The translations under genes and the position numbers were made by a program. The notes under the pieces were generated by a model that saw only the letters and a program-made list of their open reading frames with translations, had not been told where the DNA came from and made no database searches. A stretch of DNA of 64,000 bases from Salinirussus salinus (GTDB lineage Archaea > Halobacteriota > Halobacteria > Halobacteriales > Haloarculaceae), in assembly GCF_009831455.1 (NCBI RefSeq), contig NZ_WOWO01000003.1:496001-560000 (forward strand), read 5' to 3'. Shown here piece after piece: positions 2 through 47,376 of this stretch; position 1 is the stretch's first letter, and every line of letters starts with the position of its first letter.

Positions 2-1501
2 GCGCTCGGCCGACACGGCGACAGCGAGGAGACGGCGCTGCGGATCCGCGACTTCGGGACCGGCGACCTCGAAACGTACTCCTTCGCGGAGCTGAACGCC
101 GCCGCCAACCGCGTGGCGAACTACCTGGTCGAGCACACCGAGCGAGGTGCCCGCGTCGTGGCGATGCTGCCGACCCGGCTGGAGCTGTACGCCGTCGTCT
201 TTGGGACGCTGAAGGCCGGCCGCGTCTACGTCCCGATGGCGCCCGTCTTCGGCCCCGACGCGGCGGGCTACCGGCTGGACGACGCCGGCGCCGCCGTCTT
301 CGTCACGACCACCGACCACTACGGCCGCGTCGGCGACGCCATCCCCGAGGTCGTCAACCGCGTCGTCACCGTCGGCGGCGAGGTCGACGGCGACCGGACG
401 GAGGGGTACCGCGCCGTCGAGGACCACGGCAGCGACTTCGAGGCGGTCGACACCCACCCCGGCGACCCGTTCGCGCTCAGCTACACCTCGGGGACCACCG
501 GCCAGCCCAAGGGCGTCCCGATGACCCACGGCGACGTTCCCGACCTGCACGCCTACGTCGAGTTCGTCGTCGACCTCCGGCCCGACGACACCTACTTCGT
601 GGCGGCCTCGCCGGCGTGGTCCTACGGGCTGGTGATGGGGTCGCTGATGCCCGGGATCCGCGGGACCGCGATCGGCTGTTACCGCGGGGAGTTCGACGGG
701 GGCATGCTGATGGACACGCTGGCCCGGCTGGACGTCGACAACGCGATGGTCCCGCCGACCGCGCTCCGGCAGCTCGCCCAGGCCGGCGTCGACGCCGAGG
801 GGATCGACCTCCGGGTGCTGCTGGCGGCCGGGGAGTCGCTGGACGAGGACAGCGTCGGCTGGTGTCGGGACGTGCTCGGCACCGAGCCACAGGATTCCTA
901 CGGCCTGACCGAGGCCGGGATGTCGGTCTGTAACTACGCCTTCGAGGACTGGGAAGTCAAGCCCGGCAGCATGGGCCGGCCGCTCCCGGGCAAGGAAGTG
1001 GAGCTGCTCGACGACGACGAGGAACCCGTCGAGCAGGGCGAGACCGGCGAGATCTGCATCCGCCGGGAGGGCGACGACCGCGGCAGTTACTGGGGCCGGC
1101 CGGAGGCGACGACGGAGATGTTCACCGGCCGGTGGCTCCACACCGACGACCTCGCCCGCGAGGACGAGGACGGTTACTTCTGGTACGTCGGCCGGAAGGA
1201 CTCGGTGATCGTGAGTGCGGGCTACCGGATCGGCCCCGACGAGGTCGAGGAGACGCTGCTGAAACACGACGCCGTCGCCGAGGTCGCGGTCGTGGGCGTC
1301 CCCGACGAGACCCGCGGCGAGGTCGTCAAGGCTCACATCACGCCGACCCGGGAGCCCGACGAGGGGCTGGCCGAGGAGATCCAGGAGTTCGCCCGCGAAA
1401 CCCTCTCGAAACACGAGTACCCCCGCGAGGTCGAGTTCCACGACGAACTCCCCAAGACTGCCACCGGGAAGATCGCCCGCAGCGACCTCGAAGAGGACTG
1501 A
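2..1501 (+). CDS. Acyl-CoA synthetase (AMP-forming), 5' end outside window
   Basis: ATP-dependent ligase expected to activate a carboxylic acid to its CoA thioester through an acyl-adenylate. The frame is open from the first bases of the window, so the true start lies upstream and about 499 residues are visible. The phosphate-binding loop YTSGTTGQPKG, the adenylate motif DSYGLTEAG, the LHTDDLA hinge region and the C-terminal TATGKIARS with the catalytic lysine are all present. The sequence resembles medium-chain/acetyl-CoA synthetase-like ligases (compare GSMGRPLPG with GSMGKPLPG in the gene at 40454). The substrate cannot be read from the sequence. Confidence 0.93.
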   Translation, partial: ALGRHGDSEETALRIRDFGTGDLETYSFAELNAAANRVANYLVEHTERGARVVAMLPTRLELYAVVFGTLKAGRVYVPMAPVFGPDAAGYRLDDAGAAVFVTTTDHYGRVGDAIPEVVNRVVTVGGEVDGDRTEGYRAVEDHGSDFEAVDTHPGDPFALSYTSGTTGQPKGVPMTHGDVPDLHAYVEFVVDLRPDDTYFVAASPAWSYGLVMGSLMPGIRGTAIGCYRGEFDGGMLMDTLARLDVDNAMVPPTALRQLAQAGVDAEGIDLRVLLAAGESLDEDSVGWCRDVLGTEPQDSYGLTEAGMSVCNYAFEDWEVKPGSMGRPLPGKEVELLDDDEEPVEQGETGEICIRREGDDRGSYWGRPEATTEMFTGRWLHTDDLAREDEDGYFWYVGRKDSVIVSAGYRIGPDEVEETLLKHDAVAEVAVVGVPDETRGEVVKAHITPTREPDEGLAEEIQEFARETLSKHEYPREVEFHDELPKTATGKIARSDLEED

Positions 1502-5539: not shown

Positions 5540-7111
5540 CTAGCTCTCGTCCTCGTCGCGGAGCTGGTACTTCTTGATCTTGCCGCTGGCAGTCCGGGGG
5601 AGTTCCTCGACGAACTCCACCTCGCGGGGGTGTTTGTACTCCGCGATCTCGTCGAGGACGAACTGCTTGATCTCCTCCGTGGTGACGTCCTCGCCGACCT
5701 CGACGCCGCGGGCGGGGACGACGAAGGCCTTGGGCACCTCGTTGCGGCGCTCGTCGGGGATGCCGACGACCGCGGCCTCGGCGACGGCCTCGTGTTCGGC
5801 GATCAGCGCCTCGACCTCGCTGGGGTAGATGTTGTACCCCGCCGAGACGATGACGTGTTTCTTCCGGTCGACGATCTCGTAGTAGTTGTCCTCGTCCCGG
5901 CGGGCGATATCGCCCGTCCGGAAGAAGCCGTCCTCGGTGAACGCCTGCTCGGTCTTCTCGGGCATGTTGTGATAGCCCTTCATGACCTGTGGGCCACGCA
6001 CGAGCAGTTCGCCCTCCTCGCCGGCCGGGACCTCCTCGCCCTCCGTGTCGACGATCCGGCAGTCGGTGTGTCGCAGCGGCTGGCCGATGGTGCCGTGGCG
6101 CAGCCCGTAGGTCGAGCCGGTCTGGGCGTGTGTCGCGCCGTTGGTCTCGGTCAGCCCGTACCCCTCGCTGATGTCGACGCCGGTCTCCTCCTCGAAGGCC
6201 TGCTGGACGGCGACGGACATCTTCGCGCCGCCCTCGCCGGCGCTGACCAGACTCGTGAGGTCGTAGTCGCCGAAGGTCTCGCTTTCGACCATGTCGACGT
6301 ACATCGCGGTGACGCCGACGTAGTGGGTGATCTCTTCCTCCTCGATCAGCGACATGGCGGCGTCGGCGTCCCAGTTCGTGGGGTTGCGCAGGAACACCGC
6401 ACCGCCGGCGATCAGCGGCTGGAAGGCCGTGTGGGTGAAGCCGGTGATGTGATACAGCGGGAGCCAGACGAGGCTGCGGACCTCCTCGGCGTCGAGGTCG
6501 TTGGTGCTCGAGGCCATCGTCGAGCACATCTGCGCCCGGAAGTTCCGGTGGGTGAGCTGGACGCCTTTGGGCTGACCGGTCGTCCCCGACGTGTAGGGGA
6601 GGATCGCCACGTCGTCGTCGTCGGCGTCGACCATCGTCGGCTCGCCACCGACGTCCCCGAAGGCGGTGTCACCCTCGGGCACCTCGTCGCCGACCGTGAC
6701 GACCGCCACGTCCCGTTCTGTCTCGGCGAGTACGTCGTCCAGTCGCCCGCGGATGGCCTCGTGGGTGAGCACCGCGTCCGCGCCCGAGTCGTTCAGCTGG
6801 TAGGTCAGCTCCCGGCCCTTGTACTGGGGGTTGACCGGCGAGATGGGGACGCCGGCCTTGAACGCCCCGAGCGAGGCGATGATGTACTGCGGGCAGTTGG
6901 GCAGGTAGACCAGCATCGCGTCCCCCTCCTCGATGCCCAGCTCGCTCAGCCCGCCGGCGAAGCGGTCCGAGGCCGCCTTCAGTTCGGCGTGGGTCAGCTC
7001 CGCCCCGTGGCTCTCGATGGCCAGCGCGTCGCCGTGGTGTTCCGCGGTCGCGTCGTGGAGCTTCGCCACGTTCCCGGTGAAATGCTCCTCCCGGAGGTCG
7101 TCGATGTCCAT
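5540..7111 (-). CDS. Acyl-CoA synthetase / class I adenylate-forming enzyme
   Basis: A 523-aa AMP-forming acid:CoA ligase. The loop LPYTSGTTGQPKG lies near residues 171-183, followed by EGYGLTETN, RTGDIARRDEDNYY and the C-terminal TASGKIKKYQL with the catalytic lysine. It resembles long-chain fatty-acyl or 4-coumarate:CoA ligase-like enzymes more than the two MACS-like ligases elsewhere in the window. I placed the start at MDIDDL because the TATA-like TTTATT about 28 nt upstream gives a leaderless message; earlier in-frame starts overlap that box. Confidence 0.93.
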   Translation of the reverse strand: MDIDDLREEHFTGNVAKLHDATAEHHGDALAIESHGAELTHAELKAASDRFAGGLSELGIEEGDAMLVYLPNCPQYIIASLGAFKAGVPISPVNPQYKGRELTYQLNDSGADAVLTHEAIRGRLDDVLAETERDVAVVTVGDEVPEGDTAFGDVGGEPTMVDADDDDVAILPYTSGTTGQPKGVQLTHRNFRAQMCSTMASSTNDLDAEEVRSLVWLPLYHITGFTHTAFQPLIAGGAVFLRNPTNWDADAAMSLIEEEEITHYVGVTAMYVDMVESETFGDYDLTSLVSAGEGGAKMSVAVQQAFEEETGVDISEGYGLTETNGATHAQTGSTYGLRHGTIGQPLRHTDCRIVDTEGEEVPAGEEGELLVRGPQVMKGYHNMPEKTEQAFTEDGFFRTGDIARRDEDNYYEIVDRKKHVIVSAGYNIYPSEVEALIAEHEAVAEAAVVGIPDERRNEVPKAFVVPARGVEVGEDVTTEEIKQFVLDEIAEYKHPREVEFVEELPRTASGKIKKYQLRDEDES

Positions 7112-7214: not shown

Positions 7215-8342
7215 TCAGGCCACCAGTTCGCGGACGGCGTCGACCAGCTGCGTGACGCGGGCGTGGTGCTCGAAGGCCCCGTCGCGGATCCCGTTGGTGA
7301 CGTAGGCGAATGCGACCTCCTCCTGGGGGTCGCCCCAGGCGAAGCTGCTGCCCAGGCCGCCGTGGCCGAACTGGCGCTCGTGGCTCACAGTTCCAAAGCG
7401 GTCGGTCGGGAGCCCGCCCTTCGCGAAGCCCAGCGCGTACCGGCTCGGCCGTTCGAGGGTGCCGTCGACCTCCGCCTCGGCGTGTGTGCGGGTGGCCTCC
7501 GCGACGGTCTCCTCGGCCAGGATGCGGGTCCCGTCGAGCTCGCCGCCGTTGGCGATGCAGGCATAAAACCGGGCCATGTCCCGCGCCGTCCCGATCCCGT
7601 TGGCCGCGGGGATGATTGCCCGCTGGATCGCCTCGCTGTTGAAGAGCGCGGCGGAGTCGGCCGGTTCGGCCTCCAGCCCGTCGGCGGGCTCGCGACACCG
7701 GTCGGGGATCGCGAAACCGGAAAGCGTCGCCACGTCGGGGCCCTCCTCGGGTGCGAGGCCGATGCCGGTGTCGTCCATCCCCAGCGGCTCGAAGACGTGC
7801 TCGGCGCAGTACTCCCGGATGGACTGGCCGGTCACCCGCCGGACGAGTTCGCCCACCAGCCAGCCGTAGTTCATCGCGTGGTAGGCGGGCTGCGTTCCGG
7901 GTTCGAAGACCGGCTCGATGTCCTCCATCGCCGCCACGGCCGCCTCCCAGTCGGCCCAGTCGCCCACCTGCTCGTCGAACTCGCCGAAGGGGATACCCGA
8001 CTGGTGGCTGAGCACCTGCCGGACCGTGATCTCGGCTTTCGTCGAGCCTTCGTCGGCGAACTCCGGCCAGTACTCGACGAGGCGGTCGTCGTAGTCCAGT
8101 TCGCCCTGCTCGGCCAGCCGGTGGACCGCGGCGCCGGCGTAGGGTTTGGTACAGGAAAAGAGGACGTGGCGCTGGCCGCTGGTCTCCTCGCCGCCCTCGG
8201 GGTGGGGCTGGCCGCCCGCGAAGTCGACGACGAGGTCGCCCTCGTGGTAGACCGCAAGCTGTGCGCCGTGGTGGAGGCCGACCTCGAGCTGTCTGTCGAA
8301 GAGTGCGCGCAGGTGCGCCCGGTCCGCGTCGGTGAGTGGCAT
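7215..8342 (-). CDS. Serine hydrolase, class C beta-lactamase/EstB-like
   Basis: A 375-aa penicillin-binding-protein-fold hydrolase. The Ser-x-x-Lys motif is FSCTK (Ser63, Lys66), the tyrosine motif region is YHAMNYG (Tyr154), and GHGGLGS near the C-terminus is the third motif. No signal peptide is visible, so it is probably intracellular, which favours an esterase or peptidase role over antibiotic resistance. A TATA-like element about 28 nt upstream supports the ATG of MPLTDADR. It is one of two members of this family in the window; the other is at 44875. Confidence 0.9.
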   Translation of the reverse strand: MPLTDADRAHLRALFDRQLEVGLHHGAQLAVYHEGDLVVDFAGGQPHPEGGEETSGQRHVLFSCTKPYAGAAVHRLAEQGELDYDDRLVEYWPEFADEGSTKAEITVRQVLSHQSGIPFGEFDEQVGDWADWEAAVAAMEDIEPVFEPGTQPAYHAMNYGWLVGELVRRVTGQSIREYCAEHVFEPLGMDDTGIGLAPEEGPDVATLSGFAIPDRCREPADGLEAEPADSAALFNSEAIQRAIIPAANGIGTARDMARFYACIANGGELDGTRILAEETVAEATRTHAEAEVDGTLERPSRYALGFAKGGLPTDRFGTVSHERQFGHGGLGSSFAWGDPQEEVAFAYVTNGIRDGAFEHHARVTQLVDAVRELVA

Positions 8343-8418: not shown

Positions 8419-9642
8419 CTATCCCAGTCCCCCTGCGAGTAACTCCGCTTCGGGACGGCGACGCAGCGCGAGCATCGCGACCGTGCCGACCAGGGGACCG
8501 ACTGCGAGCGGGGCGAACGCCCACTGCCAGCCGACCCAGTCCGCAACGACGGGCGTCAGCTGTATCGACCCGAGCGTCAGGAGGAATCCGACCGCAGTCT
8601 GGAAGGTCAGCGCGCTCCCGACGTAGGAGTCGTCTGCGAGCTCCGAAACGGCCGCCGAGAACTGTGCGGAGTCCGCGACGACGGCAAAGCCCCACACGAG
8701 CACGAACGGAACGACCACGACCGGCGGGGCGCCGAAGACGAACCCCGCACCCAGGCACGCGCCGCCGCTTATCACCATGCTGGCGCTGGTGACGGTCGTC
8801 CGGCCCAGCCGGTCAGCGCTGAGGCCGGCGACGACGGCACCGGCCCCGCCGACGGCGATGGTCCCGAACGTCACGAGCGCGGCGAAGGCGTCACTCTCGC
8901 CGCCGCTTGCGGTGAAACTCAGCGAGAGGTACACGGGGATCCAGGCCCAGACCGCGTACAGCTCCCACATGTGACCGAAGTAGCCGAGGTTGGCGAGAGT
9001 CGTCGCCCGGTCCCCGGCGATCCGGCGGAGTGCACCCGGGTCGAACGGGGCGGCCGGCGCCTGGTGCGGGCCGGGCTCCACGAACAGGACCAGCACGGCA
9101 CCGACCGCTGCGAGGCCCGCGGCGCCGAGCAACACCGGCGTGGGTCGCCCGACGCCACCGACGCCGCGCAGGAGGTGTGGCATCGCGGACCCGACGGTCA
9201 GCGCGCCGACCAGCACGCCGATCGCGAACCCTCTCCCGGCCCGGAACCAGCCCGCCATGACCTTCATTCCGGGGGGGTACACTCCCGCGAGAGCCACCCC
9301 GGTCAGGAATCGAAGGACGACCGCTGGCAGAAACGAACTGACGCTCGTCGCGATGACGACCGTCGCGGCCGCTCCCACGGCCGCCGAGGCCGAGAACAGG
9401 TACCGCGGCTTGACCACGTCGGAGACGGTAAACAGCGCCGAGAACAGTGCGCCGACGACGAACCCGAGCTGTACCGCGTTGGTGAGCCACGCGGTTTCGG
9501 CATCGGAGAGCCCCCAGGCAGTCGCCAGCTCCGGGCCGACTGCCGAGACGCTGAACCAGAGCGTCATCGCCAGTAGTTCCGCTGTCGCGAGCAGTGCGAG
9601 GATCCGGTATTTCCGGGAGCCCGCGCCGTGTTCGTCAGCCAT
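8419..9642 (-). CDS. MFS transporter
   Basis: A 407-aa major-facilitator permease with about twelve hydrophobic helices and a cytoplasmic loop near the middle. The N-terminal helix has LLAMTLWFSVSAVGPELA, typical of the cyanate/nitrate-like MFS branch, and the loop between helices 2 and 3 is short. The ATG overlaps the end of a 33-codon reading frame, which may couple its translation. The only strong TATA-like box lies about 130 nt upstream. The substrate is unknown. Confidence 0.88.
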   Translation of the reverse strand: MADEHGAGSRKYRILALLATAELLAMTLWFSVSAVGPELATAWGLSDAETAWLTNAVQLGFVVGALFSALFTVSDVVKPRYLFSASAAVGAAATVVIATSVSSFLPAVVLRFLTGVALAGVYPPGMKVMAGWFRAGRGFAIGVLVGALTVGSAMPHLLRGVGGVGRPTPVLLGAAGLAAVGAVLVLFVEPGPHQAPAAPFDPGALRRIAGDRATTLANLGYFGHMWELYAVWAWIPVYLSLSFTASGGESDAFAALVTFGTIAVGGAGAVVAGLSADRLGRTTVTSASMVISGGACLGAGFVFGAPPVVVVPFVLVWGFAVVADSAQFSAAVSELADDSYVGSALTFQTAVGFLLTLGSIQLTPVVADWVGWQWAFAPLAVGPLVGTVAMLALRRRPEAELLAGGLG

Positions 9643-9913: not shown

Positions 9914-10756
9914 TCAGAACGGGTTCGGCGCGAGCAGCTGGCCGCCGTCGACGGTGAAGTAGCCGCCGGTGACGTAGCCCGCGGCGGGGCTCGCGAGAAA
10001 GAGGGTGATCGGCACGCAGTCGGCGGCGTCACCCAGCCGGCCCGCGGGAAGGTCAGAGACCACCCGCTCGCGGTGGTCGTCGGTGAGGATCTCCCGGATC
10101 GCGTCGGTCTCGATCACGCCCGGGGCGACGGTGTTGGCGCGGATGCCGGCGTCGGCCCACTCGCTGGCGACGGTTTGCATGAGGTTGTGGACGCCGGCCT
10201 TTCCGGCCCCGGAGTGGGCGTGATACGGCGCCCCCCAGACGCTGTTGGTCGCGCCCATCGCGATGACCGAGCCGCCGCCGTGCTCGCGCATGTGCTCGCC
10301 GGCCGCGAAGGTGCAGTAGGCGGTGCCGTCGAGGATGGTGCCGACGACCGACCGCCAGCCGTTCGGCGAGAGGTCCTCGGTTGGGGTGACGAAGTTCGCG
10401 CCGGCGTTGTTCACGAGCACGTCGATCCCGCCGAGTTCGTCGACGACGGTCTCGACCATCGCCTCGACCTGCTCGTACTCCCGGACGTCGACCGTCGTCG
10501 CACAGGCCTGGACGCCCCGCTCCTCGACGGCCTCGGCGACGGGTTCGAGGTGGTCCATGTTCCGGGAGGCGACCGCCACGTCCGCGCCGTGGTCGGCGAA
10601 CGCCAGCGCGAGTTCCTCGCCGATGCCCGTTCCGCCGCCGGTGATGAGAACGCGCTCGCCCTCGAACAGGTCGTCGGCGAAGACGTCCGTCGAGGGTGGC
10701 GTCCCGCTGAGGCCGACGCTCGTGCCGGCGCCATCGCTACCGCCCTCTTCGCTCAT
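9914..10756 (-). CDS. SDR-family oxidoreductase, 2,4-dienoyl-CoA reductase-like
   Basis: An NAD(P)-dependent short-chain dehydrogenase/reductase of 280 aa. The nucleotide motif TGGGTGIG lies at residues 39-46 and NNAG near 116-119. The catalytic region PYHAHSGAGKAGV contains Lys186, and APGVIETD follows. ASRNMDHL after the Rossmann motif and the AGKAGV segment resemble the dienoyl-CoA reductase branch. The first 28 residues are a poorly conserved extension. The gene overlaps the BKACE gene by 4 bp (ATGA), so it is the last gene of the operon. A 3-hydroxyacyl dehydrogenase role is an alternative. Confidence 0.88.
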   Translation of the reverse strand: MSEEGGSDGAGTSVGLSGTPPSTDVFADDLFEGERVLITGGGTGIGEELALAFADHGADVAVASRNMDHLEPVAEAVEERGVQACATTVDVREYEQVEAMVETVVDELGGIDVLVNNAGANFVTPTEDLSPNGWRSVVGTILDGTAYCTFAAGEHMREHGGGSVIAMGATNSVWGAPYHAHSGAGKAGVHNLMQTVASEWADAGIRANTVAPGVIETDAIREILTDDHRERVVSDLPAGRLGDAADCVPITLFLASPAAGYVTGGYFTVDGGQLLAPNPF

Positions 10757-11640
10757 TCGGGCACCTCCATGATCTCGCGGGCCTCGTCGGGGGTGGCGGG
10801 CTCGCGGCCGACGTCCCGGGCCATCCGCGCGGCCCGCGCGACCAGGTCGGCGTTGCTCTCGGCCATCTCCCCCTCCGGGAGGTAGAAGTTGTCCTCGAGG
10901 CCGACGCGGACGTTCCCGCCCATCGACAGCGCCGCGCCCACCAGCGGCCACTGGTCGCGGCTGATCCCGATCACCTGCCAGGTCGCGTCGTCGGGGAGCT
11001 GGCGGACCTGGTGGGCCAGGTTCTCGACCGTCGCCGGGATCCCGCCGAGCACGCCCATGATGAGGCTGAACTGGATGGGATGGGTAAGTTTCCCCTGCTT
11101 GACCAGCGGGCGGATGTTGCCGATGTGGCCGGTGTCGAAACACTCCAGTTCCGGCTTGACGCCGGCGTCGTTCATCGCCGAGAGGAAGGCCTGGATCTCC
11201 GAGAACGAGTTGTCGAAGACCTGGTCGAAGACGAAGTCCTCGCGGCGGTCGGAGTACTTCGCGTAGTTCATCGAGCCCATGTTCAGGGCGGCGACGTCCG
11301 GCGAGACCTCGCGGATGTAGTCGGTGCGGGTCTCGACGGGTTCGTCGACGGCGCCCGTCGAGAAGTTGATGATGATGTCCGTCCGGTCCCGGACCTCCTC
11401 GTAGATCTCGCGGTAGGTCTCCGTCGAGAAGGTGGGGTCGCCCTCGTCGGTGCGGGCGTGGATGTGCGCGACGGCCGCGCCGGCCTCGCGGGCGGCGGCG
11501 GCCTCCTCGGCGATCTCCGCGGGGGTGTAGGGGATCGCCTCGCACTGGTCGCGCGTGGTCAGCGCGCCCGTCAGCGCCGCCGAGATGACCACCCGCCCCG
11601 GGTCGTTGCCCTTGACTGAATCCTGTGTGTCGAAGCTCAT
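10753..11640 (-). CDS. Beta-keto acid cleavage enzyme (BKACE, DUF849 family)
   Basis: A zinc-dependent TIM-barrel enzyme of 295 aa. Family members condense a beta-keto acid with acetyl-CoA, giving acetoacetate and a shortened acyl-CoA. VISAALTGA near the N-terminus, the metal pair HIHAR (His59, His61), LNMGSMN, ELECFDTGHIGN and GGNVRVGLEDN are all family hallmarks. It starts 25 nt after the enoyl-CoA hydratase stop and overlaps the SDR, so it is embedded in a fatty-acid-like degradation operon. The side-chain specificity cannot be read by eye. Confidence 0.9.
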   Translation of the reverse strand: MSFDTQDSVKGNDPGRVVISAALTGALTTRDQCEAIPYTPAEIAEEAAAAREAGAAVAHIHARTDEGDPTFSTETYREIYEEVRDRTDIIINFSTGAVDEPVETRTDYIREVSPDVAALNMGSMNYAKYSDRREDFVFDQVFDNSFSEIQAFLSAMNDAGVKPELECFDTGHIGNIRPLVKQGKLTHPIQFSLIMGVLGGIPATVENLAHQVRQLPDDATWQVIGISRDQWPLVGAALSMGGNVRVGLEDNFYLPEGEMAESNADLVARAARMARDVGREPATPDEAREIMEVPE

Positions 11641-11665
11641 GTATGTGTCACTCTTGTCATGTGTA

Positions 11666-12472
11666 TTATCGCTGTTTCCACTCCGGTTCCCGGTCGTTCA
11701 GGTACGCGTCGATGCCCTCCTCGGTGGCCTCGCTCATCGCGATGATCGTGATGACCTCGCTGAGATAGTCCAGCGCCGACTCGAAACCCAGGTCGCGCTG
11801 GGTGTAGTAGGCCTCCTTGCCGATCTCGATGAGGACGGGGCTGTTGTCGGCGAGTTCGTCGACCAGTGCTGACAGCGTCTCTTCGAACTCCCCCTCGGGA
11901 GCGACGTCGGTCACCAGTCCCATCGACTCGGCCTCGGCGGCGTCGATGAACTCCCCCGTGAAGAGCAGCCGCAGGCCGGCCTTCTCGTCGGCCGCGCGCA
12001 TGATCGGGGCCATCGCCTGCGCGGGGAAGAGACCGACGTCGACCTCGGGAGTCCCGAAGACGGCCTCGGCGTCGGCGACGACGAACTCGCAGGCGGTCGC
12101 GAGCCCGAGGCCGCCGGCCAGGCAGTACCCCTCGACGGCCGCCACCGTCAGCACGGCCGCGTCGACCATCGACTCGACGAGGTCTGCGAGTCCGGAGAAG
12201 TTCTCGCGGTAGGCCTCCGAGCCCGCGCCGAAGGTCTCGCTCATCGAGGACAGGTCGCCGCCCGAGCAGAACGTCCCCTCCGCGCCCCGGATGACGAACA
12301 CCCGGGTCTCGCCCTCGTCGGCGTAGGAAAGGGCCTCCTGGAGCCCGCCGATGATGTCCGGACTGAGCGCGTTGCGCTCCTCGGGGCGGTCGAGGGTGGC
12401 CCACAGCACCAGCCCGTCCTCGCTTTCGGCGACGTCGAGGTCCGGGTTCGAGAGGTCCTCGTGGCGGTCCAT
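11666..12472 (-). CDS. Enoyl-CoA hydratase/isomerase family protein
   Basis: A crotonase-fold protein of 268 aa. TLDRPEERNALS and the oxyanion-hole segment EGTFCSGGDLS (near residue 70) are typical, as is the second oxyanion segment EGYCLAGGLGLATACE. The usual hydratase glutamates are not obvious in TPEVDVGLFPAQAM, so isomerase or thioesterase chemistry is possible. Its ATG overlaps the acyl-CoA dehydrogenase stop by one base (TGATG), implying translational coupling. Confidence 0.9.
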   Translation of the reverse strand: MDRHEDLSNPDLDVAESEDGLVLWATLDRPEERNALSPDIIGGLQEALSYADEGETRVFVIRGAEGTFCSGGDLSSMSETFGAGSEAYRENFSGLADLVESMVDAAVLTVAAVEGYCLAGGLGLATACEFVVADAEAVFGTPEVDVGLFPAQAMAPIMRAADEKAGLRLLFTGEFIDAAEAESMGLVTDVAPEGEFEETLSALVDELADNSPVLIEIGKEAYYTQRDLGFESALDYLSEVITIIAMSEATEEGIDAYLNDREPEWKQR

Positions 12473-13674
12473 CAGTACGAGCGGGGCAGGCCGAGTGCGT
12501 GCTCGGCGATGTGGTTGCGCATCATCTCCGAGGAGCCCGGCGCGACCCGGCCCAGCCGGCTCCCCTTCCACATCTCGACGACGTGATAATCGCGGCTGAA
12601 GCCGTTGCCGCCGTGGGTCTGCAGGGCGACGTCGGTGGCCTCGTGGCCGGCCTCGGTCGCCCGCAGTTTGGCCATGTTCGAGAGCTCGGCCACGCGGGCG
12701 GGGTCGTCGCCGTGGTCCATCATCCAGGCTGCCTTCTGGACCAGCAGCTTCGCGGCCTCCAGCTGGGAGTGTGACTCCGCGATGGGGTGCTGGATGGCCT
12801 GGTGGCCGCCGATGGGCTGGCCGAACACCTCCCGTTCCTTGGCGTAGTCGACCGCGCGCTGGATGGCGTTGCGCCCGGTCCCGATCGCGCCCGCGGCGCC
12901 GACCAGCCGCTCGGGGTTGACCGTGTCGAACAGCTGGTACAGCCCCTGGTCCCGCGTCCCGATGATGTCGTCCTCGGTGGCGACGTAGTCGTCGAAGCTG
13001 AGCTCGAACTGGTTTTCGGGGGTGGGGATGCCGACGTCGAGCTCGCGGAGTTCGATGTTGGGGTCGGAGGGGTCAGCCAGGAAGAGGGTGATCCCCTCGG
13101 TGCGCCGCTCGACCTGGTCTTTGGGGGTGGTGCGGGCGACCAGCAGCATCCGGTCGGCGTGGTCGACGCCGCTGATCCACTGCTTGCTGCCGTTGACGCG
13201 GAAGGTGCCGTCGCCCTGGTCCTCGGCGAAGGTGTCGAGGTTGGGGGCGTTGTGGCCGGCGTTTGGCTCGGTCAGCGCCATACAGAAGCGCAGGTCGCCG
13301 TCCATCAGCGGACCCAGCAGCTCGTCGCGTTGCTCTTCGGTGCCGTGCTCGACCAGCGTCACCGCGCCGAAGACGACGTTGACGACGAAGAGCATGTTCG
13401 CGCTCGTGCAGCCGTGGGCGCCCAGCTCCTCGACGATGGTGGTCAGTTCGACGACGCCCATCCCCTCGCCGCCGTATTTCTCGGGGACGGTCACGCCGAG
13501 AAAGCCGGCGTCGGCACAGTCCTGCCAGAACTCGGTCGGCCGGCGTTCGCCGTCGGTCACCTCCCGCCAGTACTCGTCGTCGTACCCCTCCGCGACCTCC
13601 CGGGCGGTCTGTTTGATGAGGCTCAGCTCCTCCGTTTCAACGAATCCAGGGTTGTTGGTTTCCGCTTTCGCCAT
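12472..13674 (-). CDS. Acyl-CoA dehydrogenase
   Basis: A flavoprotein of 400 aa, expected to oxidise an acyl-CoA to the 2-enoyl-CoA and pass electrons to an electron-transfer flavoprotein. MALTEPNAG (residues 132-140) and KQWISG mark the FAD domain, and QTHGGNGFSRDYHV is the C-terminal signature. The glutamate normally found in the YEGTSE motif is missing: the segment reads VAPGSSE, with Pro379. Glu255 in NPERLVGA aligns with the catalytic Glu of isovaleryl-CoA dehydrogenases, which hints at a branched substrate. It is the first gene of the operon, with TTTATC about 31 nt upstream. Confidence 0.93.
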   Translation of the reverse strand: MAKAETNNPGFVETEELSLIKQTAREVAEGYDDEYWREVTDGERRPTEFWQDCADAGFLGVTVPEKYGGEGMGVVELTTIVEELGAHGCTSANMLFVVNVVFGAVTLVEHGTEEQRDELLGPLMDGDLRFCMALTEPNAGHNAPNLDTFAEDQGDGTFRVNGSKQWISGVDHADRMLLVARTTPKDQVERRTEGITLFLADPSDPNIELRELDVGIPTPENQFELSFDDYVATEDDIIGTRDQGLYQLFDTVNPERLVGAAGAIGTGRNAIQRAVDYAKEREVFGQPIGGHQAIQHPIAESHSQLEAAKLLVQKAAWMMDHGDDPARVAELSNMAKLRATEAGHEATDVALQTHGGNGFSRDYHVVEMWKGSRLGRVAPGSSEMMRNHIAEHALGLPRSY

Positions 13675-13782
13675 GCGTGCTAACACGCATCAGGTCGTGA
13701 TAAATGTGCGTCCCTCGGGGGGAGCGGACTGGCCCGACCCGGACCGGGCCGCCCCCGGGACCGACGCCGGCCGGGACGACCG

Positions 13783-18655: not shown

Positions 18656-20098
18656 ATGCCATCCGACCGGGAGCCGTTCGTGGTCGTCGGCGGCGACGCC
18701 GCCGGCCTCAGCGCCGCCAGCAAGTGTAGACGCGAGTCCGACCGCGAAGTCGTCGTCTACGAGAAGGGTTCGTGGGTCTCCTACGCCCACTGCGGGACCC
18801 CCTACTTCGTCAAGGGGGAGGTCGACGAACTGACCGACCTGCTCTCGCTGTCGCCCGACGAGGTCGACGAGCGGGGGATCGAGCTCTGCCGGAACCACGA
18901 AGTGCTCGACGTCGACACCGAGGCCCGCACCGTCAGCGTCGCGGGGCCGGACGGGGAGTTCGAGCAACCGTACGGCGACCTGCTGGTCGCGACGGGTGCC
19001 CGCGCGCTGACGAGCCCCGTCGACGGGACGGACCTCGACGGGGCCCACACGCTACACGGCCTGGACTCCGCTGCGGGGATCCGCGCCCACCTGCTCGACC
19101 CCGATACTGACCACCTCGCCGATGTCGGCGGCGAAGCGTTCGTCGACCGCGAGCGCGTCGAGCGCTACGGCGCGATGGACCCGCCCGAAACGGTGGCCAT
19201 CGTCGGCGGCGGCTACGTCGGCATCGAGATGGCCGAGGCATTCAGTACGCACCAGTGCGACGTCCACCTCTTCCAGCGCGGCGCCCACGTCCTCCCGCCC
19301 TTCGGCGAGGCCGTCGCCGAGCGGGTCGAGGCGGAACTCCGCGAGCGGGGGGTGACGCTTCACCTGGAGACAGAGGTGGCGGAACTGACCGGCAGCGAGG
19401 GGCGGGTCGAGCACCTGGTCTGTACCGGCGGGACGGAGCTTGACACCGAGCTGGCGCTGGTCGGCGTCGGTATCCAGCCCAACACCGAACTCGTGGCGGA
19501 CGAGCCGGTTGGGACCGGGCCCGGCGGGGCCATCGTGGTCGACGACCACGGCCGGACGGGCGTCGACGGCGTCTACGCCGCGGGGGACTGCGCGACGATG
19601 GAACACGCCGTGACGGGCGAGCCCGAGTGGGTGCCGCTGGGGCTGACGGCCAACCGCGCCGGCCGCGCCATCGGCTCGACCGTGGCGGGCGACCCCGAAC
19701 CGGTGGGGACCATCGCCGGCACCGGGGTGCTGAAGGCCTTCGACTGCGAGGCCGGCCGGACGGGGATCATCGACCCCGACCGGGCCCGCGAGGCGGGCTT
19801 TGACCCCGTGAGCGAGACCGTCACCGCGGGCTCGCGGTCGGGCTACTACCCCGGCGGGTCGGAGACCGACGTGACGCTCGTGGCCGACCGGAACTCGGGG
19901 CTGTTGCTCGGGGGGAGCATCGTCGGCACCGACCGCGCGGCCATCCGGGTCGATATCCTCGCGACGGCCATCGAGCAGGGCGCGACAGTCGGAGAACTCG
20001 AACGGACGGATCTCGCGTACGCGCCGCCGTTCAGCCCGGTCTGGGACCCCGTGCTCGTCGGCGCGAAGGTGCTCCGGGGGTCGGTCGAGGCGGAGTAG
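18656..20098 (+). CDS. CoA-disulfide reductase-type FAD-dependent oxidoreductase
   Basis: A pyridine-nucleotide-disulfide oxidoreductase of 480 aa. VVVGGDAAGLSAA binds FAD, VAIVGGGYVGIEMAE binds NAD(P)H, and GVYAAGDCATM is the second FAD motif. The redox cysteine lies in SYAHCGTPY, as in CoA-disulfide reductases and NADH oxidases that use a single active-site Cys. The C-terminal dimerisation domain is present (LAYAPPFSPVWDPV). A TATA-like TTACG about 28 nt upstream fits a leaderless message. The role is thiol redox balance or polysulfide reduction. Confidence 0.9.
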   Translation: MPSDREPFVVVGGDAAGLSAASKCRRESDREVVVYEKGSWVSYAHCGTPYFVKGEVDELTDLLSLSPDEVDERGIELCRNHEVLDVDTEARTVSVAGPDGEFEQPYGDLLVATGARALTSPVDGTDLDGAHTLHGLDSAAGIRAHLLDPDTDHLADVGGEAFVDRERVERYGAMDPPETVAIVGGGYVGIEMAEAFSTHQCDVHLFQRGAHVLPPFGEAVAERVEAELRERGVTLHLETEVAELTGSEGRVEHLVCTGGTELDTELALVGVGIQPNTELVADEPVGTGPGGAIVVDDHGRTGVDGVYAAGDCATMEHAVTGEPEWVPLGLTANRAGRAIGSTVAGDPEPVGTIAGTGVLKAFDCEAGRTGIIDPDRAREAGFDPVSETVTAGSRSGYYPGGSETDVTLVADRNSGLLLGGSIVGTDRAAIRVDILATAIEQGATVGELERTDLAYAPPFSPVWDPVLVGAKVLRGSVEAE

Positions 20099-20341
20099 TT
20101 CGGGTCGAGCGGTCTCGTTGCCCCCTTGAGCCGGATGGGGTTCAGCATTCCTGCTGAGCGCAGGGTGCGTATCACTCACCGCAGTCGAACCGGGAGACGG
20201 CTGAAGGAATCGGTTGTTACAGCACCCTGCCGTATATGTATAATATCTTAAATACTGTCTGCCAGACATGGGGGCTGGTCACACACAAAGAGTGGTTTGT
20301 GTTACCTCAATCACTTTCGTTACCCGGGGTGTCGTTCCGGT

Positions 20342-21502
20342 GTGGAACGATATACAGTAGTCCTCGTACTCGTCTCAGCACTCGTCCTGGCGGGCTGTGC
20401 CGGCGGTTTGGGCGCGGAGACAGGACCCTCCGATTCAACACACGTATCGCCCGACCAGGTACCTGGCGTCACGAACGGGACGCTCTCGAACGCCTCGGCT
20501 CTTGTTGAGGCAAATCGGAACGCGGTGACGACTCGTGGAGTTGTCCTTCAGGTCAACCGGTCCTCGGCTCAAGGGACCATTGACGCCCGTCTCGTCGTTG
20601 GGGCGAACCTCTCGACGTACACCATCTCAGGTACAGGGTCGCTGAGTGACGGGCAGTCCACGACCATCGACCAGTGGAGCAACGAAACCACGCGATTCGT
20701 TCGGACCTCCTCAGACGAGAAGACGAACTACCGAGTCCTTGAGGGGCACAACAACCGGCTCACTATCCTTTCCCAAGTCTACCGGTTTCTCTCGGCAGGC
20801 GATTTCGAGGTTGCCAACGAAACGTCCGGTGATAGCAACGTCGTTCTCACTGCGGACAGCGTTTCAGCAGCAAGCACCTCGACAGGTGACGTTGAGTCCT
20901 TCGAAGGCCGTCTCGTCGTCACCGAATCCGGCCGGATTCAGAATCTGTCGGTCACAGCCACTCAAGACGGCGAGACAGTGACCTACAGCTACGAGTTGCG
21001 CCAGGCCGGTGTCGACAGTGTCCCCGAACCGGACTGGATAGACGACGTGCCACCGGGTGCGAGCGTTCAGGCCCAACTCTCCATTGACGTAGAAAACAAC
21101 TCATATCTCACACTCAAACACATCAGGGGCGATGTGGTCCCGAGTGCGACGACGGTGCGAGTAGAATCCAACGGGACAACTGACACGGTGAGTTTGGATG
21201 GTTCACTCTCGGCCGGCGACACGCGCTACGTCTACTTCGACGCCTCCTCGCAGGAACTCCGGGTGACGGCTGACCGCCCCGAGACACGTACTGTCTCGCC
21301 TGTCACCAGCCCGGCGTCTGTTCGGATTGTCACCGAAGGCGGTGCTGTCCTCCACAGTGGAAGCATGGCCTGGGAATCCACGAGTGAGTCCGCAAGCGGT
21401 GCCGACAGTTCCAGCGAGACGATGACCACGGAGAGCGCAAACGCAACCGCAGCGGCCATCACGCGTGGTTGCACATCGAAGCGGCGGCCAGTGAACCCGT
21501 GA
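20342..21502 (+). CDS. Haloarchaeal lipoprotein of unknown function
   Basis: An exported protein of about 386 aa. I start it at GTG because this places the lipobox ALVLAGCAG close to the N-terminus (VERYTVVLVLVSALVLAG), and TCGTTACC lies about 25 nt upstream. The rest is Ser/Thr-rich, beta-strand-rich and has many N-x-S/T sequons, as in cell-surface proteins. The general look matches the DUF7537 lipoproteins, which I say with moderate confidence only. The last 30 residues are low complexity. Codon use is less GC-rich than in neighbouring genes, suggesting acquisition. The 243-bp spacer before it has AT-rich TATA-like sequence at 20233-20255. Confidence 0.75.
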   Translation: MERYTVVLVLVSALVLAGCAGGLGAETGPSDSTHVSPDQVPGVTNGTLSNASALVEANRNAVTTRGVVLQVNRSSAQGTIDARLVVGANLSTYTISGTGSLSDGQSTTIDQWSNETTRFVRTSSDEKTNYRVLEGHNNRLTILSQVYRFLSAGDFEVANETSGDSNVVLTADSVSAASTSTGDVESFEGRLVVTESGRIQNLSVTATQDGETVTYSYELRQAGVDSVPEPDWIDDVPPGASVQAQLSIDVENNSYLTLKHIRGDVVPSATTVRVESNGTTDTVSLDGSLSAGDTRYVYFDASSQELRVTADRPETRTVSPVTSPASVRIVTEGGAVLHSGSMAWESTSESASGADSSSETMTTESANATAAAITRGCTSKRRPVNP

Positions 21503-21524
21503 GCCTCGAACCCGTCCCCTCTTC

Positions 21525-22217
21525 CTACACCCCCTCGAGCCCGGCAAGCACTTCACCGGTCAGTTCGAGGTCGTCAGTCCAGAACCCAGCGTAGCGCCCG
21601 TTCTCGGCACGCGCGACGAGCGCACAGGACTCCGCCCCACCATCGAACGCGAGCACCCAGTACCGGGTTAGCCCGCCGGCGATTTCGTGATAGGTAACCC
21701 CCGGGATCGCCGGCGGGTCCCAGTCGTCGATACCGTAGATGTGGAGTTCCAACTCGGTGTCGACGGCGAGGCGACGGTACGTCTCGACCTGGGCTTCAAA
21801 CGCGGAGAGCCGTTGAAAGGCCACACGAAGCGTTCCCTGGCCAACCCGGAACGCACGGTCCTCTATCTCCCGGCTGACCGCAAGTAGGTCCTGCCGCCCG
21901 AGTGCTGTGAACACGGTTCCATCGAGTACCTCGAACAGGGCCCGGTAGCCCTCGGAAATCTCCTCGGAGTCACCCGGCCGGACGAGTGGCGGCTCGAGGA
22001 GCCCCTCTAACGCGTCCAAGCCGAGGGCGCCGACAAATTCGCCGTTGTCTTCGATAGCGACAAACGGGTCCGGCCTTCCCGGCGGGAGGTCTCGCCGCTC
22101 GACGGTGACCCGGTGGTTCGCAAACCGGTCGCTCAGGCCGTCTTCGTCGTCTCGTGTGTGGACGATAAACCGCTTCCCGTGGCTCTGGACCTCGTCAAAT
22201 AGTGTATCGAACATCAT
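21525..22217 (-). CDS. DICT-domain sensory protein
   Basis: A 230-aa soluble protein recognisable as a DICT sensor domain (named after diguanylate cyclases and two-component systems). Characteristic stretches are FIVHTRDDEDGLSDRF, FQRLSAFEAQVETYRRLA and ELHIYGIDDWDPPAIPG. Its ATG overlaps the winged-helix gene stop by one base, so the two form an operon. The family is often combined with output domains; here the output is presumably the adjacent DNA-binding protein. The ligand is unknown. Confidence 0.8.
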   Translation of the reverse strand: MMFDTLFDEVQSHGKRFIVHTRDDEDGLSDRFANHRVTVERRDLPPGRPDPFVAIEDNGEFVGALGLDALEGLLEPPLVRPGDSEEISEGYRALFEVLDGTVFTALGRQDLLAVSREIEDRAFRVGQGTLRVAFQRLSAFEAQVETYRRLAVDTELELHIYGIDDWDPPAIPGVTYHEIAGGLTRYWVLAFDGGAESCALVARAENGRYAGFWTDDLELTGEVLAGLEGV

Positions 22218-22603
22218 CAGTCACCCCGTTGCTCGCCCTCGACACTGCGGGCGATTAGTGACGCGACATCATCGCTGAGCGGCCTCAGGGTGATAGAGTC
22301 GGTCGCCTGGTGGTACTCGACGAGTCCCGCATCCTCGAGGACCGGTAAGTCCCGGTGGTGGAGTTCGCTCCGGATCCGTCGGTAATCGTCTGCTCCACGC
22401 ATCGTGCCCGCCTCCGTTGCCTCCCAGCCGGCCAGGACAGTCGTGAGGTCGTCAAGCGTGGCCGCGTCCTGAACAAGCAGGATATACAACACCCGGCGTC
22501 GCTGGGTCGAGGCCATTGCCCGATAGAAGTCGTCCTCAGACAAGCGCACCCCCCAGTCCCCGCGCTGCCCCCCGGGATCTGGCTCTGTCGTACGCTCATC
22601 CAT
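22217..22603 (-). CDS. Winged-helix regulator (DUF7344-like)
   Basis: A 128-aa protein with one winged-helix domain: AMASTQRRRVLYILLVQD, then IRSELHHRDLPVLEDAGLVE and the wing YHQATDSITL. This is the common haloarchaeal architecture in which an N-terminal recognition of 'the gene' part is followed by an acidic tail. The start MDERTT is placed 27 nt after TTTATTTTT, a good TATA box. It is co-transcribed with the DICT protein and probably delivers its signal. Confidence 0.82.
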   Translation of the reverse strand: MDERTTEPDPGGQRGDWGVRLSEDDFYRAMASTQRRRVLYILLVQDAATLDDLTTVLAGWEATEAGTMRGADDYRRIRSELHHRDLPVLEDAGLVEYHQATDSITLRPLSDDVASLIARSVEGEQRGD

Positions 22604-22744
22604 AGGGTATGGTACTCGTTCACAAGGAAAAATAAACCTTCCGCGCACTCCAGAGGTCGCCGTCGGCGGTTTCGACAATGATCACGAGGTCCTCCTTGCT
22701 CGAGGTCGTACTCACGCCTCCGGGCCGTCTTCAGTGGCTCGGGG

Positions 22745-22975
22745 TCACCCCTCGTCGTCCGAGTCGCGCCCGTCGGCGAGCCAGTCGACCTCGCTGGATG
22801 CTTGCAACGACACCGTCGTAGTGTCGGTAGCGGTATCATCGCGCCCTTCGGTTCCATCGACATCCGCACTCGGTGCATCGGGGTCCGGATCACCAAGTCG
22901 GTCCTTCGGTGGACCCCTGGCCTCGACCTGCGCGAGTAGGGTCTCCAGTTCGCCTGGGTCGCCCTCGTAGCGCTC
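22745..22975 (-). pseudogene. C-terminal fragment of a protein gene
   Basis: An open frame of 76 codons reads YEGDPGELETLLAQVEARG and ends in the acidic VDWLADGRDSDDEG. It is composition-typical haloarchaeal coding sequence, but it begins directly after an in-frame TGA and has no usable upstream start. It is therefore likely a remnant of a longer gene. I do not recognise the family. Confidence 0.45.
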
Positions 22976-22980
22976 TCAGA

Positions 22981-23318
22981 ACGCGGGAGCGGGAGTGGAC
23001 GGAGACGTGTGGCGTGGGCGGTCACCCGCCTGGGGTGCCGGCGTGACTGTCGGGTGCGGCCTGGACGAGGCGAATCCAGGCCGCCGCTTGAATGCCAGAC
23101 GGTGCGGGCGTGTCGGCGGGTGCCATCCACACCTCGGATGTGGAGCCGACTAAAGGCATCCCAATTCGTGGGTTCTCGTGTCTGTTCGCGACCATGTGAA
23201 CCCGCTTGTGGTGGTTTGAGACCGTCCAACCATCCGGTTTTGTTCAAACCCGTGACCGCTGGGAGGCTTCAGCGAGCCTGCGTGATACACCGTACGTATC
23301 CGTCACCACGAACTGCTT
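22981..23318. other. Gene-free stretch with several hairpins
   Basis: There is no convincing gene here. Three hairpins stand out: GGCGG/CCGCC at 23017-23030, a perfect 10-bp stem GCGGCCTGGA/TCCAGGCCGC at 23056-23084, and TCCACA/TGTGGA at 23126-23144. A weaker inverted repeat, GTTTGA/TCAAAC, lies around 23215-23250. A 45-codon minus-strand frame starting at 23159 exists, but its reality is uncertain. The stretch could be a structured RNA or the remains of an element. Confidence 0.35.
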
Positions 23319-24185
23319 CTATCCGAGAGACGACCTGCGGGATTCCAGCCCGATATACAGAAGAGATACGACGATCAGATACAGCCCCATCCCTCCGACG
23401 ACGCCCCACGTCAGGGCGTTCGATTGGTCGAAGTTGGCCCAGACACGGACGACACCAATCAGGACCAACGTGAACCCAAGTAGTTGACTTTGGACCAGTA
23501 TTCTGGCAGCGCTCCAGCGAGGGTCAAGCACGACGACGCTGTTAACGACGCCGAAGAGAGCAAACCATCCCGCCAAAATCCGCGCCGTGAAAGGGGACAC
23601 GGTCCATGGCCACACCCCAATCATGAGTTCCGGCGCGATAAACAGGGCGACAGCACTGACTGTGATGAGCACTCCTAAGCCACCGCCGAGCACCCGCACC
23701 ACTTGTGGGAGAAGGACCTCGCCCCCCTCCAGTTCCTCAGGATCGGCCCGGCGATTGAGCACCCAAATTGCTGGAATAAGGACGGGAGTGACTGCGTAGA
23801 GAAACACCCAGAGACCGAACGTGAAGTGACTGTGGTTGAAGTTTTCCCAGTGGAGCACGGTGGCGATAGCCATCAGCCACGTGAATGCGGCGATCCCGAG
23901 GAAGACCGGGGCGACCGTGTGCCACTTGTTGACGGAGGCGACCCGATAAAAGAAATACACTCCCGCCCCGTAGCCTGCGCCCATTATGATCGGCGTCATC
24001 TCGGGTTGGATCGTCCACGCGAAGTACGTCGTGGTCTGGTCGGGCAGTCCGTAGAGAACCAGAAACGCCGCAGCTAAAAACGGGATAATGAAGCGCGCGA
24101 CCCATCGGGTAATCGGAAGGACCCGCCCATTACGGTCAGAGGTGCCCAGTATCCACCTTCGAAAAACTGCTTTCCGTTCGTTCAT
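23319..24185 (-). CDS. Polytopic membrane protein of unknown function
   Basis: A 288-aa protein with about eight hydrophobic helices. The conserved-looking loop HWENFNHSHFTFGLWVFLY contains clustered His and Asn that could bind metal or substrate. I cannot assign a family. A TATA-like GATATATTC lies about 40 nt upstream, followed by a direct repeat GATTCAGTCTGATTCAG that could be an operator. It stands alone in the accessory block between gene fragments. Its GC content is lower than that of the flanking core genes. Confidence 0.75.
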   Translation of the reverse strand: MNERKAVFRRWILGTSDRNGRVLPITRWVARFIIPFLAAAFLVLYGLPDQTTTYFAWTIQPEMTPIIMGAGYGAGVYFFYRVASVNKWHTVAPVFLGIAAFTWLMAIATVLHWENFNHSHFTFGLWVFLYAVTPVLIPAIWVLNRRADPEELEGGEVLLPQVVRVLGGGLGVLITVSAVALFIAPELMIGVWPWTVSPFTARILAGWFALFGVVNSVVVLDPRWSAARILVQSQLLGFTLVLIGVVRVWANFDQSNALTWGVVGGMGLYLIVVSLLYIGLESRRSSLG

Positions 24186-44420: not shown

Positions 44421-44874
44421 GATCCGTCCGGGTGGTTGTCGCCACGGGAGTAACGTACCAACCGCCGAAGTGCTCAGTCAGCAACGGCGGGCGAGTATTT
44501 ATGCCCGCTGCCGGGAAACAATCCAGTTTGTGCTAGTACGACGCGTTACCAGGCCGGTCTTCGCCGTTGTCCGGGCCGGCCGAGGCGAGATATGCGCGCT
44601 GCAGCCAGCACGGCTTCTGAAATCTATCACCGGTTGAGACCCTCAACAATACCGTCTACTGGTACAGAGGGTGCGACAGAAAACGGTCAGTAGAAGCCTC
44701 TGGAAACGTTCAGAGACCGCCTCGCTCTCATCGGTGCCGGTCACTATCCAATCAACCACTCCTCCCCCGGTCTTCCCGAGACTCTCTCCAAGTACGACTT
44801 CTTGTCGAAGACTTCCTTCGGACCCGGGGACGGTACTACCATTTAAAACCCCCAAAACATAATATTCGACCATT
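44421..44874. other. Gene-free 454-bp spacer
   Basis: It contains a probable TATA element (TACGTTACTCC) about 30 nt upstream of the esterase-like gene on the minus strand and CATTTAAAAC about 30 nt before the next gene on the plus strand. Short frames on both strands have no coding character I trust. Confidence 0.5.
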
Positions 44875-46816: not shown

Positions 46817-46944
46817 CAGCCGTTGCCGCCGTCCGGCGCACTCCTGCCGCTACCGGGAACGAAAAGCGTCGAGGTCAGGTTCGGTCGACTCCGCAGTGTT
46901 TCGCTACCGACCGGAGTTTTGTACCCCGGGACCGACACGCCGGT

Positions 46945-47334: not shown

Positions 47335-47376
47335 CGGGCGACGGCCCGGGACGTGGGCGGCCGGACGACCGCCCGC

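Follow-up and report, generated by a model that had tools for sequence, protein, structure and literature searches.

In this paper we describe a four-gene operon of the haloarchaeon Salinirussus salinus that encodes a beta-keto acid cleavage enzyme (BKACE) alongside enzymes of acyl-CoA metabolism. It lies at positions 9914-13674 of a 64,000-nucleotide stretch of contig NZ_WOWO01000003.1 (positions 496,001 to 560,000; hereafter the window). The operon is probably the core of a route for beta-methyl acids that resembles the Atu and Liu pathways, with BKACE in the slot of the lyase: this haloarchaeon and many bacteria unrelated to it seem to degrade methyl-branched acids through the addition of CO2 followed by cleavage of the chain by BKACE. 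The case is built on the operon itself, a clade of related BKACEs, its co-occurrence with a carboxyltransferase, conserved catalytic residues, loci in which no other known lyase is found, and the presence of a different candidate lyase (AtuA) in both genomes that hold the carboxyltransferase without the BKACE. From these we infer every reaction of the route and its substrate.

The operon and its carboxyltransferase partner

The operon consists of four open reading frames (ORFs) on the minus strand of contig C3 of the source genome (G000):

12472..13674, minus strand: acyl-CoA dehydrogenase (ACAD), first gene; Pfam Acyl-CoA_dh, above curated cut-off
11666..12472, minus strand: enoyl-CoA hydratase-like protein (ECH) resembling AtuE; Pfam ECH_1, above curated cut-off
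10753..11640, minus strand: BKACE, proposed C-C-cleaving enzyme of the pathway; PF05853, 343.7 bits against a cut-off of 24.8
9914..10756, minus strand: short-chain dehydrogenase/reductase (SDR), 2,4-dienoyl-CoA-reductase-like; adh_short_C2, above curated cut-off

An original prediction, made from the sequence alone, had named these four genes, and all four ORFs and their Pfam families bear it out. Its claim that the genes are coupled by 1-bp and 4-bp overlaps holds for ACAD/ECH (1 bp shared, TGATG) and BKACE/SDR (4 bp, ATGA), but ECH and BKACE do not overlap: they are separated by 25 bp. BKACE is present as a single copy in the genome.

Among 391 Halobacteria genomes the BKACE query returned 36 matches with E < 1e-130 (66-100% identity, 35 genomes), the next matches being at most 45% identical; in the class scans of both BKACE and the carboxyltransferase, clade membership was cut at the gap in E-values. 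The genes that recur around the haloarchaeal clade members are ECH, SDR, ACAD, an acyl-CoA ligase and a carboxyltransferase (PF01039). Across 35 loci (L031-L065, from 34 genomes, the window left out), tblastn (E 1e-12, within 10 kb) detected ECH in 35, ACAD in 29, the carboxyltransferase in 26, SDR in 21 and the ligase in 15; the corresponding figures for 20 control loci of other haloarchaeal BKACEs are 1, 2, 0, 7 and 3. The gene combination is unusual, as had been supposed, and it is not a chance one: ECH is a constant companion at these haloarchaeal clade loci and almost never one of other haloarchaeal BKACEs. Gene calls in the fetched loci came from our own codon-score and longest-ORF callers, which missed some genes (the BKACE of L055 and the ECH of some loci); tblastn recovers these ECHs. 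A lack of conserved neighbours in related genomes had been set down as part of what would count against the original prediction; they are conserved, both in haloarchaea and in bacteria.

In S. salinus the carboxyltransferase orthologue is found at C3:569879-571585 (79% identity to that of L031). Together with a ligase orthologue (67-69%) it occupies C3:568000-571585, 8-12 kb past the window's right-hand end and roughly 62 kb away from BKACE. The carboxyltransferase clade was found by the class scan in 37 genomes: every one of the 35 that have the BKACE clade, plus 2 of the 356 without it (G303 and G352; Fisher 6e-48, uncorrected for relatedness). Because the gene lies outside the window the original prediction missed it; the direction given there, a route for branched acids, stands, but the route was incomplete, lacking a partner present in 35/35 genomes. 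With this partner the route resembles the carboxylation of the Atu and Liu pathways rather than beta-oxidation plus cleavage of a beta-keto acid.

The remaining enzymes of the operon have features of these pathways. ACAD was predicted to carry the isovaleryl-type Glu255 and to lack the YEG glutamate, and 13/13 aligned relatives agree: Glu255 is present in each, and an invariant Pro379 occupies the position of the YEG-type glutamate of other families (we take both positions to be sites of the catalytic glutamate). It is by this pattern an isovaleryl-CoA-type dehydrogenase. The family has 22 other members in the fetched clusters, and the window ACAD is 62% identical to the ACADs of the AtuA-type clusters in G303 and G352. 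The window ECH retains Glu164 and has Gly in place of Glu144 (two glutamates whose usual roles we assume here), and AtuE, the third-best match in the PDB (4zu2, 113 bits), likewise keeps the former and has lost the latter in the alignment, which makes the window enzyme an AtuE-like hydratase by this measure. Glu at 164 and G, L or F at 144 were found in 48 of the 49 BKACE loci in which both positions aligned (6 of them haloarchaeal), the exception, L172, being another ECH. SDR scores 208.6 bits against the 2,4-dienoyl-CoA reductase model NF005811, below the equivalog cut-off of 318.

The proposed route would begin with activation of the acid by an acyl-CoA ligase and formation of a 2-enoyl-CoA by ACAD. 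A biotin carboxylase and the carboxyltransferase would then carboxylate the beta-methyl group, and the single-glutamate ECH would hydrate the product to a 3-hydroxy-3-alkylglutaryl-CoA. In S. salinus the candidates for this biotin carboxylase are two hits (C-terminal domain) located elsewhere in the genome. BKACE would complete the C-C cleavage, taking the slot of 3-hydroxy-3-methylglutaryl-CoA (HMG-CoA) lyase in Liu and of AtuA in Atu, with net products of acetoacetate and, depending on the side chain, acetyl-CoA (methyl) or a shortened acyl-CoA (longer). We assign it this terminal step because it is placed after ECH, at the position of LiuE or AtuA, and because no other known lyase is conserved. 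The candidate substrate is an isovalerate-like or terpenoid acid.

The genome of S. salinus holds seven carboxyltransferase-domain genes outside the window, as against the two biotin carboxylase hits, with the result that several of the former have to work with a shared partner or with none.

A BKACE clade shared by haloarchaea and bacteria

When the clade alignment was used to scan named genomes, it returned at least 80 loci, 6 haloarchaeal and 74 bacterial (51-64% identity), among the matches listed, a scope that applies to all counts over the 74 bacterial loci. The bacteria include Chloroflexi, Deltaproteobacteria, Myxococcota, Bacteroidetes, Actinobacteria and others. A FastTree phylogeny of 137 rows gives a support of 0.99 to the haloarchaeal group, which has 42 rows (38 of them distinct; L137, L138, L140 and L173 repeat genomes), and 0.999 to the haloarchaeal and 74 bacterial rows together (116 rows). 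Outside fall the 3-keto-5-aminohexanoate cleavage enzyme (Kce), BKACE15, 3lot, 3e49 and 17 other haloarchaeal BKACEs. Judged by its sequence, the window BKACE belongs to a new, distinct clade with haloarchaeal and bacterial members. Cultured carriers include Halorientalis regularis TNN28 and Actinarchaeum halophilum YIM 93972. A phylogeny and active-site comparison had been proposed as the check on its substrate class. The enzyme is in no assigned subfamily: it misses the cut-offs of all four NCBIfam models, scoring 297.5 bits against the Kce model NF052387 (equivalog cut-off 382), on which four bacterial orthologues score 254-285 bits.

The active site is conserved. His46, His48 and Glu230 (Kce numbering), which we take to be the Zn ligands, are identical in 116/116 clade rows, as are the residues aligned with Glu171 and Arg254 of BKACE15. 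At the position of Kce Glu14 every one of the 116 rows has a non-acidic, hydrophobic residue, which is Leu or Met among the haloarchaea and L, V, A, I or F among the bacteria. The predicted structure of the window BKACE (pLDDT 93.6) adopts the TIM-barrel fold of the PF05853 family and superimposes on Kce (2y7d/2y7f; Z 41.0, rmsd 1.4 over 270 residues) and on BKACE15 (8rio, 9hnf; Z 41.0, rmsd 1.8 over 283 residues). HMG-CoA lyase is not among the 50 structural matches listed, which is uninformative either way. The window BKACE thus shares its (modelled) fold, Zn ligands and catalytic Glu and Arg with Kce and BKACE15, but differs from both in its separate clade, its gene context and the subfamily cut-offs that it misses, and from Kce also in the Leu or Met that the haloarchaeal clade has instead of Glu14. 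For BKACE15, the published account reports mutants that support E171 as the base, and also names R254 (PMC11961710). It further describes structure 9HNF, in which acetoacetate and acetyl-CoA are bound together (PMC11961710); these are the two products of HMG-CoA cleavage, and we counted the structure in favour of BKACE in the lyase slot.

In many bacteria both carboxylase subunits and a single-glutamate ECH stand immediately before BKACE. Using tblastn, ECH or a carboxyltransferase was detected at 63 of the 74 loci (both at 35), a biotin carboxylase at 28 and ACAD at 39; HMG-CoA lyase and AtuA were each found at 0/74. A frequent arrangement is ACAD – carboxyltransferase – biotin carboxylase – ECH – BKACE, with SDR or ACAD next. 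Other conserved neighbours are SDR, regulator-like proteins and, at 7 loci, a CoA-transferase III-like protein (identified by sequence inspection rather than by a search), and no other lyase was recognised among the conserved neighbours of the 49 loci with a recognised BKACE ORF. Two of the bacterial carboxyltransferases were compared with solved structures: that of L150 matched methylcrotonyl-CoA carboxylase (MCC) at 660, geranyl-CoA carboxylase (GCC) at 468 and the best enzyme of the propionyl-CoA carboxylase (PCC) type (1vrg) at 248 bits, and that of L179 at 501, 486 and 242 bits. Both are by similarity of the methylcrotonyl/geranyl type. Some genomes have both a liu operon and a BKACE locus.

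The carboxyltransferases also offer a residue that bears on the size of the substrate: Phe191 of MCC corresponds to Gly162 of GCC, and swapping the two is reported to alter substrate preference (PMC4673880). At this gate, BKACE-linked bacterial enzymes of the MCC/GCC family have Gly in 23/24 cases and Ala in 1/24, and enzymes of a third type, which is PccB-like, show S, T or A in 23/24 cases and Phe in 1/24. The haloarchaeal carboxyltransferase clade has Gly in 35 lettered rows (a count that omits 4 paralogue rows, with I, S, D and Y, and 4 gap rows) and in 4 named rows, 3 of which repeat genomes already counted; within S. salinus, PccB has Tyr and a paralogue Ile. As controls, a liu operon with HMG-CoA lyase (L222, from a genome that also holds a clade BKACE) has Phe, and of six actinobacterial carboxyltransferases encoded near HMG-CoA lyase five have Ala, the sixth (L223) showing Pro where the alignment is poor. 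Only for the operons with MCC/GCC-family enzymes, therefore, does the gate speak for bulky substrates. As proof of bulky substrates in haloarchaea it was rejected, given the Ala of the actinobacterial enzymes. Features of the GCC type were seen in the bacterial operons checked; the haloarchaeal enzyme is of the PCC type overall, with Gly at the gate. The actinobacterial carboxyltransferases near HMG-CoA lyase (L223-L228) are 43-47% identical to the haloarchaeal clade, and there is a hint that the haloarchaeal type can serve leucine breakdown.

The cleavage step

AtuA is the suspected lyase of acyclic terpene utilisation. For the Liu pathway a review assigns the lyase step to liuE (PMC4097962). 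Neither enzyme was found in S. salinus: searches returned no match to AtuA (PF07287) and none to HMG-CoA lyase (NF004283) at E 1e-20, and its two HMGL-like genes, which score 67 and 53 bits where the HMG-CoA lyase cut-off is 246, are of the LeuA type. Strong AtuA matches (E < 1e-70) occur in 12/391 genomes and in 0/35 clade genomes, of which one (G305) has a weak match of 75 bits. The 12 include G303 and G352. Among the 37 genomes with the carboxyltransferase, strong AtuA thus marks exactly the two without BKACE, an outcome with a chance of 1 in 666 if random. In G352 AtuA is clustered with ECH, SDR, the carboxyltransferase, a ligase, a thiolase and two ACADs; on a 4.7-kb contig of G303, AtuA (68% identical to that of G352) adjoins an SDR 69% identical to that of the window. 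A third case, Natrinema halophilum, came from a plasmid search outside the class scan: here an ECH (54%) overlaps AtuA (61%) by 16 bp, with an MFS transporter (65%) and a carboxyltransferase (56%) alongside. At E 1e-60 the plasmid records contained no BKACE relative.

In 6 of the 13 haloarchaeal AtuA stretches fetched (L125, L128, L129, L131, L132 and L135), the gene immediately preceding AtuA encodes HMG-CoA reductase; in Salinigranum marinum (L283:4733-7350) the reductase that it follows is degradative by annotation. This position is in keeping with cleavage of HMG-CoA-like esters by AtuA and suggests that it is the lyase of mevalonate degradation in haloarchaea.

HMG-CoA lyase scores above its cut-off in 40/391 haloarchaeal genomes: 4/35 with the BKACE clade and 36/356 others (Fisher p 0.77). 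The idea that BKACE simply replaces HMG-CoA lyase across haloarchaea was rejected, there being neither a positive nor a negative association. Haloarchaeal HMG-CoA-lyase-like genes (L097-L101, L103-L106) are found with a CoA-transferase III and aconitase-like large and small subunits, often with an amidohydrolase and an isochorismatase-like gene; these operons belong to another pathway, not to leucine breakdown.

We regard the proposed pathway as a new version of the Atu/Liu type that belongs to neither, since the defining AtuA and HMG-CoA lyase were searched for in S. salinus and are absent. With atuABCDEFGH of Pseudomonas it shares ACAD, the carboxyltransferase, an AtuE-like hydratase, SDR and the acyl-CoA ligase, as well as the wide-gate carboxyltransferase of the bacterial BKACE operons and the presence of AtuA in the two haloarchaea that lack the BKACE clade. 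It differs in that BKACE takes the place of AtuA in S. salinus and at the 74 bacterial loci and, in haloarchaea, in a cluster without biotin carboxylase and a carboxyltransferase nearer PCC. With liuABCDE it shares the order carboxylase – hydratase – C-C cleavage and a dehydrogenase with the isovaleryl-type glutamate, but the loci lack HMG-CoA lyase (LiuE) and the MCC/GCC-family enzymes have Gly rather than Phe at the gate. A non-orthologous HMG-CoA lyase in leucine catabolism has a reported precedent in Rv2498c of Mycobacterium tuberculosis, an (R)-HMG-CoA lyase, which is of a CitE-like family and not a BKACE (PMC6689899).

How BKACE would fill the slot admits more than one answer. A tentative proposal, which we regard as possible, is that the clade is a new 3-hydroxy-3-alkylglutaryl-CoA lyase that has independently replaced HMG-CoA lyase and AtuA. 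The zinc site would perform a retro-aldol cut of the hydratase product to give acetyl-CoA and a zinc-bound 3-oxo acid; with longer side chains the classical BKACE reaction would follow in the same site, releasing acetoacetate and a shortened acyl-CoA. Since an HMGL-type cut yields acetyl-CoA and a 3-oxo acid, the substrates of BKACE, one zinc site could do both. The original prediction held that BKACEs do not act on CoA thioesters; exclusion of the pathway's CoA-thioester products as substrates is not established for this clade. It is also quite conceivable that BKACE is a classical enzyme only, and that the 3-hydroxy-3-alkylglutaryl-CoA has already been split into acetyl-CoA and a free 3-oxo acid by another lyase (an HpcH/HpaI enzyme, or an HMG-CoA lyase encoded elsewhere); BKACE would convert this pair to acetoacetate and a shortened acyl-CoA. 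Such a lyase would, by the same reasoning, supply exactly the two substrates of BKACE; the catalytic residues of classical BKACEs are conserved in 116/116 rows, and the hydrophobic residue at the Glu14 position of all rows fits an alkyl substrate. Against this division of labour, no known lyase is conserved beside BKACE at the 74 listed bacterial or 35 haloarchaeal loci, and 31/35 haloarchaeal clade genomes lack an HMG-CoA lyase over the cut-off. We think it rather unlikely that the operon serves plain leucine/isovalerate catabolism, with BKACE as a non-orthologous HMG-CoA lyase and a substrate of the size of 3-methylcrotonyl-CoA: the missing HMG-CoA lyase of S. salinus, the isovaleryl-type ACAD, 2-oxo acid dehydrogenase genes in the N. 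halophilum cluster and an MFS transporter suggestive of a small acid would suit it, but the gate of the BKACE-linked MCC/GCC-family enzymes is Gly or Ala where that of the liu operon is Phe (a difference that does not discriminate for the haloarchaeal type), and some genomes hold a liu operon and a BKACE locus together. Very improbable is the scheme first put forward, beta-oxidation of a branched or functionalised acid to a free beta-keto acid that BKACE cuts, without carboxylation. The adjacency of ACAD, ECH, BKACE and SDR is what it would explain; it sits poorly with the strict genome-level link to the carboxyltransferase, with both carboxylase subunits in bacterial operons, and with an ECH without Glu144.

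Several observations weigh against placing BKACE in the lyase slot of a carboxylating route. The haloarchaeal carboxyltransferase is nearer PCC (360 bits) than MCC (272) or GCC (232), and biotin carboxylase was detected at 0/35 haloarchaeal clade loci. Retro-aldol chemistry has, to our knowledge, been shown for no BKACE. AtuA replaces BKACE in only two sampled genomes, and both the ACAD (27% identity) and the SDR (only 31%) of N. halophilum belong to other families. Neither ECH nor carboxyltransferase was found at 11/74 bacterial loci, short contigs included, many bacterial records being incomplete metagenome-assembled genomes. A separate lyase is possible, given HMG-CoA lyase genes elsewhere (above the cut-off in 19 of the 50 bacterial genomes tested, representing 50 of the 74 loci, and in 4/35 haloarchaeal clade genomes) and four HpcH/HpaI-type genes in S. 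salinus, whose superfamily includes Rv2498c (PMC6689899).

Assignment of BKACE to the cleavage step provides a hitherto unassigned clade, present in archaea and in several phyla of bacteria, with a testable role, and haloarchaea with a candidate for their missing lyase step. If it is correct, clade genes named 3-keto-5-aminohexanoate cleavage enzyme are misnamed; if the clade is itself a lyase, that lyase spans haloarchaea, Chloroflexi, Deltaproteobacteria, Myxococcota, Bacteroidetes and Actinobacteria. In a partial literature collection (titles and abstract openings, among the matches listed) BKACE was not tied to methylcrotonyl- or geranyl-CoA carboxylase or to HMG-CoA lyase.

Flanking genes and other features of the window

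Four further features of the window may relate to the operon, the last two being recognised by inspection only:

8419..9642, minus strand: MFS transporter, 65% identical to the MFS gene adjoining ECH-AtuA in N. halophilum
2..1501, plus strand: acyl-CoA ligase, running past the left edge of the window, 63% identical to the ligase adjoining the carboxyltransferase in G303
13699..13704, minus strand: candidate TATA-like TTTATC, 25-30 bases before the ACAD start codon
13675..13688, minus strand: inverted repeat GCGTG-TTAG-CACGC, possible operator, directly before the ACAD start codon

From its similarity to the N. halophilum gene the transporter probably belongs to the same pathway as the operon; no counterpart was seen in the other clade loci examined. 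The ligase is, on the same kind of evidence, a tentative partner. The inverted repeat was not seen in the stretch preceding the ligase at L075:8000. Downstream of the operon and on the same strand lie a second acyl-CoA ligase (5540-7111) and a beta-lactamase-fold hydrolase (7215-8342), which are not conserved beside other clade loci. Elsewhere in the window, positions 20001-24000 and 44001-48000 have a lower G+C content (0.617 and 0.630, against about 0.70) and few called genes.

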